From Methanothrix thermoacetophila PT (GTDB lineage: Archaea; Halobacteriota; Methanosarcinia; Methanotrichales; Methanotrichaceae), in assembly GCF_000014945.1 (NCBI RefSeq), contig NC_008553.1, forward strand, positions 310,001 through 374,000: 64,000 nt of DNA, written 5' to 3'. The notes below the pieces were generated by a model. That model ran no database searches. It had not been told where the DNA came from and saw only the letters and a program-made list of their open reading frames with translations. The translations under genes were made by a program, and so were the position numbers. Each line of letters starts with the position of its first letter. Positions within the stretch are counted from its first letter, which is position 1. Below, in pieces: positions 58,551 to 59,721 of this stretch.

Positions 58551-58860
58551 CTTCAGAACATCTCCAAGCTTCAGGCATATCCCTCCCTTCAGATTATCCT
58601 GATGTAAGTGAATGGGAACGAATCAATATATAAATGCCCATCCCCTCAGGAGGATCGGTCCGAATAAAAGGTTGGGGCCAGAAATACTAGCCATACAGCA
58701 CTTGTTTGCCATGCATTACATTCTTATGCGATTATACAACTCTGGGTTCGATGGCGCAGCAATGGCCATGTGTGTATCCATTTACTCAGAAAGGTATTTA
58801 AATGATGCTACATATTCTCGCAATGATGATTTACTTTGTGTTACTATAGGGGTGATATGA
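58551..58860. other. Intergenic, 310 bp
   Basis: Contains a partial family B element (58652-58690) and a TATA-like TATTTAAAT near 58794, probably the promoter of the next gene (GGGGTGAT before its TTG start). Confidence 0.5.
58652..58690 (+). repeat. Family B fragment B13
   Basis: GGATCGGTCCGAATAAAAGGTTGGGGCCAGAAAT matches the left part of B2. Confidence 0.55.
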
Positions 58861-59619
58861 TTGTATACACGTCTGTCTTTTGTCTTTATTATGCTCGTGA
58901 TGCTGCTCACAATCTCCTCTGCCCAGGAGCCGTTATGGCTTGGACGCGGCGCTACTGAGGATGTCATGAACCTGAATGTAGGTGCGAGGTCGCCGGGATA
59001 TGTTCCCGCATTTGGGACCAGCGGATTTGCAGCGCCTGCATCCCCACAAGTGATGGCGCTGAGCACCAGCGCGATGGTGCATCAGGCAGAATCATTGCTG
59101 TCTGAGATGAAGAGAGAGCGAGATGAGATCCTCTCGATATACAATCTGACGAGAAAGATGGCGGTTTATGCATCTGAGAACGCGAGCATTGCCAGATCGA
59201 TGGCTGAATCGGCTGAGATGAATGCGAGAAGAGCGGAGACGAGCGCATACGAATGCAGGGTTGCACTCAATGAGACCGAAAGTGTGAGATCTGAGATCCT
59301 CTCGATATACAATCTGACGAGAAAGATGGCGGTTTATGCATCTGAGAACGCGAGCATTGCCAGATCGATGGCTGAATCGGCTGAGATGAATGCGAGAAGA
59401 GCGGAGACGAGCGCATACGAATGCAGGGTTGCACTCAATGAGACCGAAAGTGTGAGATCTGAGATCCTCTCGATATACAATCTGACGAGAAAGATGGCGG
59501 TTTATGCATCTGAGAACGCGAGCATTGCCAGATCGATGGCTGAATCGGCTGAGATGAATGCGAGAAGAGCGGAGACGAGCGCATATGAATTCAGGATGGC
59601 GATCAACACGAGCAGCTGA
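58861..59619 (+). CDS. Secreted coiled-coil protein with 56-residue tandem repeats
   Basis: 252 aa, TTG start. Signal peptide ends near SSAQEP. After a 60-residue linker three repeats of 56 aa follow (about 89-252, the last shortened); at DNA level they are 168 bp and almost identical. Each contains EILSIYNLTRKMAVYASENA, and NLT, NAS and NET give possible N-glycosylation sites. 56 residues equal eight heptads, so a continuous coiled coil is likely. It may form a surface or sheath fibre. Copy number is probably variable. Confidence 0.85.
   Translation: MYTRLSFVFIMLVMLLTISSAQEPLWLGRGATEDVMNLNVGARSPGYVPAFGTSGFAAPASPQVMALSTSAMVHQAESLLSEMKRERDEILSIYNLTRKMAVYASENASIARSMAESAEMNARRAETSAYECRVALNETESVRSEILSIYNLTRKMAVYASENASIARSMAESAEMNARRAETSAYECRVALNETESVRSEILSIYNLTRKMAVYASENASIARSMAESAEMNARRAETSAYEFRMAINTSS
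59125..59612 (+). repeat. 168-bp tandem repeat, 2.9 copies
   Basis: Repeat starts at 59125, 59293 and 59461, each opening with GAGATCCTCTCGATATAC. The first two copies are identical over nearly all their length. The last ends at 59612 with small changes (GCATATGAATTC for GCATACGAATGC). Confidence 0.92.
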
Positions 59620-59721
59620 AGCTCCAGCTGAGATGAATCCGATCCCCGCAGCTGGGGCTGTATCTGTGCTCATCGGAAAAGATTTTTACAGTTTGACATT
59701 CTTGGGCAAAGCAGTGAGACC

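Follow-up and report, generated by a model that had tools for sequence, protein, structure and literature searches.

The gene and its 168-bp array

The gene lies on the chromosome of the closed 1,879,471-bp genome of Methanothrix thermoacetophila PT, of which we analyzed a stretch of 64,000 nucleotides (C1:310001-374000), hereafter called the window. It occupies positions 58861 to 59619 of the forward strand as an open frame that starts with TTG and encodes 252 amino acids. A TATA box (TATTTAAA, 58795 to 58802, forward strand) preceded by an A-rich, BRE-like GAAAGG is kept upstream of 6/6 orthologs of the genus, and a Shine-Dalgarno-like GGGGTGAT (58849 to 58856, forward strand) stands 4 nt 5' of the TTG. 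Comparison of the upstream DNA revealed that all six same-genus species share the TATA box, the motif AGGTGATATG, and either TTG or GTG as the start codon, and the start of the gene is therefore well placed. A sigma-70-type promoter scan was set aside, the host being an archaeon, and the TATA/BRE comparison was used instead. As far as we searched, the main text of the published transcriptome and sheath papers does not mention the gene, and Mthe_03xx tags in the literature matched only another gene.

Residues 1 to 21 (58861 to 58923) were predicted to form a signal peptide cleaved after SSA-Q. This hydrophobic segment is the sole membrane-like stretch of the protein, and an AxA-type cleavage site is present in most relatives. 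It is followed by a conserved Gly/Pro N-region (residues 22 to 68, 58924 to 59064), modeled as disordered (pLDDT <50), and by a lead-in to the coil (residues 69 to 88, 59065 to 59124), with helix predicted from residue 69 onward. The cleavage region (ISSAQEP) holds no lipobox cysteine after the signal peptide, and we found in the protein no sorting signal, no C-terminal anchor, and no C-terminal membrane helix; any attachment to the envelope would be a guess.

Tandem Repeats Finder returned one real array in the window (59124 to 59595; period 168, 2.8 copies, 99% matches, score 930), the remaining rows scoring just 50 to 56. At a lag of 168, identity is unbroken over 294 bases (59124 to 59417 versus 59292 to 59585), and the gene reached a self-match score of 298, while its codon-shuffled versions never exceeded 15. 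The protein carries 2.75 copies of a 56-residue unit (56 codons, or 8 × 7), which we delimited by the array and by in-frame comparison. Unit 1 (59125 to 59292, with Cys132) and unit 2 (59293 to 59460, with Cys188) are identical at 168/168 nucleotides. Unit 3 (59461 to 59616) continues for 42 codons like the other two, with a single silent change (TAC/TAT) in its first 126 nt, and then ends in a different 10-residue C terminus, EFRMAINTSS, without a cysteine. The preliminary description of three near-identical copies thus holds for units 1 and 2 in full and for three quarters of unit 3, the last part of which is different. The array is single copy in the PT genome, where the only other relative is a diverged paralog without an array (C1:1283078-1283497).

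Repeat units across the genus

We compared PT with five same-genus orthologs (G042 to G046), with one genome per species. All lie at the same locus, conserved in the genus, between SRP54 and an AI-2E-type transporter gene (SRP54 of G044 is found on another contig, because the one bearing the gene stops upstream of it). As in PT, three units were found in G042, while G043, G044, G045, and G046 harbor two. At least three of the genomes compared are MAGs, and in these a count of two is a lower bound, as identical repeats may collapse in MAGs. Copy number was thus not constant but two or three among species, each represented by one genome, and export of the protein is predicted; the variation in repeat number anticipated earlier, between cells, is seen here at the level of species. 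In a tree of the flanking PerM gene, PT stood farthest from the other five, with G042 closer to the two-unit species (node support, a weak 59%). Because the two three-unit species are not sisters on this tree, the number of units has probably shifted on at least two occasions.

Within genomes, the units were close to each other, with dS values of 0 to 0.04 in PT, 0.04 to 0.11 in G042, 0.04 in G044, 0.07 in G045, and 0.16 in G043. The units of G046 were diverged (dS of 0.43), the only such case among the six genomes. Between PT and G042, on the other hand, unit dS was 0.59 to 0.97, similar to that of the N-region of the gene (0.88), and 16 of 126 sites were fixed differently between the three PT units and the three G042 units. 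In the unit tree, grouping was mostly by species. These computed distances are in good agreement with the earlier suggestion that the array is homogenized, since two species 0.6 to 1.0 dS apart each carry nearly identical units. The companion suggestion of a recent expansion proved too simple: the likeness of units within a genome extends across most of the genus, so homogenization keeps recurring. Furthermore, 21 of 28 interspecies changes in the gene fall on codon position 3, dN/dS between species is ~0.1, and the units themselves are under purifying selection (dN/dS, ~0.1).

From these comparisons, the array is best read as that of a selected protein undergoing concerted evolution, which is more than one fresh duplication. 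Homogenization recurs but is not constant, given G046, in which either it has lapsed or conversion was partial. The units of G046 (L006) diverge from each other about as much as from those of other species, and its unit 1 groups with G043.

Heptad phasing, sequons, and the protein family

In the unit, 9 of 10 alanines occupy one 4-3 pair of registers (2 and 6; p about 1e-4), and hydrophobic power peaks at a period of 3.50 (p = 0.012 for one unit). The alanine register and the period back the proposal that the 56 codons of a unit are eight heptads. Similarly, a free scan from 3.0 to 4.5 placed the best hydrophobic period at 3.48 to 3.56 in 19/20 family proteins. Counted in 21-nt heptads, the lags of the DNA duplications detected in the family are 8 (genus), 1 (G019), 5 (G012), and 3 (G017), the matches in G012 and G017 being short. 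With a probability of 1/7 that an in-frame lag is a heptad multiple, our estimate of the chance of four independent whole-heptad lags is ~4e-4. We regard these lags as the strongest evidence that selection sees the coil itself and, judging from the sequences, take the heptad phasing to be real and selected. The G019 relative (L011) has its own tandem array of 21-bp units encoding the seven residues ARDEAVS, an independent expansion.

The coil contains no Gly or Pro, and each unit except the terminal one has a single cysteine, in register with the core alanines. An AlphaFold2 model made from four sequences, as a monomer, has helices at residues 69 to 136 and 140 to 251 (pLDDT about 80; pTM, 0.40). 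Helix prediction is easy for an Ala-rich sequence. If straight, residues 69 to 251 would span ~27 nm and each unit ~8.3 nm, at the standard 0.149 nm per residue.

NLT and NAS sequons are present in all three units, as first described, and NET is present in units 1 and 2, but NTS replaces it in unit 3. The PT protein harbors 9 sequons versus 2.5 expected by shuffling (p = 0.0005), and sequons are enriched roughly 2- to 5-fold in relatives, significantly in most. The PT genome encodes three STT3 oligosaccharyltransferases above the Pfam cutoff, and genomes of Methanothrix harundinacea are reported to contain N-glycosylation genes, AglB among them in multiple copies (PMC9128505).

In 19 family members, G28, N37, L38, G41, G55, F56, P59, and Q63 of the N-region are invariant. 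A profile of this region (A3) matched 22/50 genomes from the taxonomic family of the host and none of 188 from elsewhere in the class; the PT protein fits its pattern, LGxG..NLxxGA..GFxxPxxPQ after the signal peptide and then a heptad coil. Since the gene is absent from more than half of the genomes of this taxonomic family, life in a sheath does not depend on it. No convincing curated relative was found in Pfam or NCBIfam (in NCBIfam, nothing came near the cutoff), and the N-region profile had no relative in the PDB. The family is thus uncurated, probably envelope located, and, among the genomes searched, restricted to the host's taxonomic family. Other candidates were rejected. A tropomyosin match of the whole protein to solved structures was at chance level (E = 0.29); Pfam matches to PPP1R21, DUF3175, Cas2, and others were taken as composition noise because most relatives lack them; and searches for a viral, plasmid, or phage origin returned no relatives.

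A candidate rod of the cell envelope

Methanothrix, a major producer of methane, is enclosed in a tough sheath, and to our knowledge, the layer between its membrane and that sheath is little known. With moderate confidence, we propose that, in the cell envelope of Methanothrix, the protein forms a secreted coiled-coil rod of the alanine-zipper type, which is N-glycosylated and has a length stepped by 56-residue units. After removal of the signal peptide, the Gly/Pro-rich N-region would dock to an envelope partner, and the C-terminal helix (69 to 251) would self-associate via its alanine faces, possibly linked by disulfides through the core-register cysteines, with the sugars on the outside of the rod. 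Recombination between identical 168-bp repeats would lengthen or shorten the rod by one unit of eight heptads (~8.3 nm), and the same recombination would maintain the likeness of the units in each species. Changes other than whole heptads would not survive, because they would break the coil. The rod could act as a spacer, tether, or brush between the membrane or S-layer and the sheath. The family offers a clean natural record of coiled-coil length change, in whole heptads only and with units alike within species.

The precedent for an effect of coil length is the bacterial Braun lipoprotein, Lpp, likewise an exported alpha-helical coiled coil with core alanines; a 4-3 heptad core was found here, and export is predicted. 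In Lpp+14 and Lpp+21, whole heptads set the distance between envelope layers, added heptads widening the periplasm (PMC5736177). Unlike Lpp, the PT protein is archaeal, lacks a lipobox and the C-terminal lysine for peptidoglycan, has an extra N-region, and is 3-fold longer. Its coil matched the Alanine_zipper family PF11839 (28.8 bits; cutoff, 23.1), but the match is spread over the repeated stretches and only 2/19 relatives share it; it seems to reflect a similar composition and not common ancestry, and the protein would not be an Lpp family member. The more specific form of our proposal, an archaeal molecular ruler in which a glycosylated, disulfide-linked alanine-zipper rod sets the membrane-sheath spacing and is tuned in eight-heptad quanta by recombination of homogenized repeats, is unlikely to hold in full. 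Repeat number offers a simple handle on whether coil length sets envelope spacing, as with bacterial Lpp.

The sheath proteins of the same organism, MspA (Mthe_1069) and SH (Mthe_0667/0668), are also exported envelope proteins, described as amyloid-like beta proteins (PMC10470525, PMC11576556); they are set apart from the PT protein by this description and by our model, which is helical over residues 69 to 251 and not beta-rich. Borg elements of Methanoperedens encode archaeal proteins with near-identical in-frame repeats, reported to have formed recently and independently (PMC9879509). Those repeats, however, are extrachromosomal and make disordered regions, whereas the PT gene is chromosomal and vertically syntenic and encodes a heptad-phased helix.

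A rather unlikely alternative is that the protein is a surface adhesin or a stalk for contact with phages or partners and that its repeat array serves as a contingency locus, with cells differing in the number of repeats. Identical repeats of 168 bp lend themselves well to recombination, copy number does differ between species (2 or 3), and bacterial minisatellite surface proteins, such as staphylococcal Sdr, are reported to behave in this way, combining an exported repeat region with variable copy number (PMC3324548). However, just 2 or 3 units were seen, selection within units is strongly purifying, and searches of Pfam, NCBIfam, and the PDB revealed no recognizable adhesive domain. Unlike Sdr, the PT protein has neither a wall anchor nor an adhesin domain, and its repeat unit is a coiled coil of 56 residues, not Ser-Asp.

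Short tandem duplications commonly arise by mutation, and the perfect identity of units 1 and 2 would also fit a single fresh duplication in PT, by slippage or unequal crossover, that has no special biology and will drift. This reading is already disfavored, and we consider it quite unlikely: homogenized units are found at the same locus in 4/5 other species, each time with a species-specific sequence, and both the dN/dS of ~0.1 and the heptad-multiple lags across the family speak against it.

It is more doubtful still that the protein works with the extracellular side of metal or cofactor importers, the rod merely holding the docking region. N-region trees separated the genus copies, a group that includes the PT paralog, another in which several members are CbiMQO linked, and further sequences, and neighborhoods were conserved only within these groups. 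Relatives in G003, G016, and G018 (L028, L035, and L034, respectively) adjoin CbiM/CbiQ/CbiO-type transporter genes together with DUF4198, and those in G032 and G004 adjoin an iron/cobalamin-type ABC ATPase. Nevertheless, the genus copies and the PT paralog lie away from metal-transporter genes, and three of the metal-transporter cases may be one inherited arrangement; moreover, these genomes are very rich in binding-protein genes (9 to 69 each), so that such a neighborhood is a weak clue.

Finally, an antisense frame (59092 to 59673, reverse strand, 193 aa) is open across the array, and also in an ortholog, but it is almost certainly not the real gene with the sense strand wrong: the 168-nt repeat length is a multiple of 3, so any stop-free antisense frame stays open through the array, while the interspecies changes fall on sense-frame third positions (21/28) and the promoter, ribosome-binding site, and signal peptide all fit the sense frame.

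Returning to the relatives of the gene, the clusters of G003, G018, and G016 also include small His-containing exported proteins. The paralog-group loci L026, L030, L039, and L040 lie near a small exported protein without an assigned family, and at some loci of this group a DUF2116 protein is also close by, as is a beta-helix-like surface protein. A contig from another genus (L032, G019:C50:2000-9732) carries a near-identical copy of the PT paralog (L026) together with its neighbors, which suggests either a misbinned contig or a very recent transfer.
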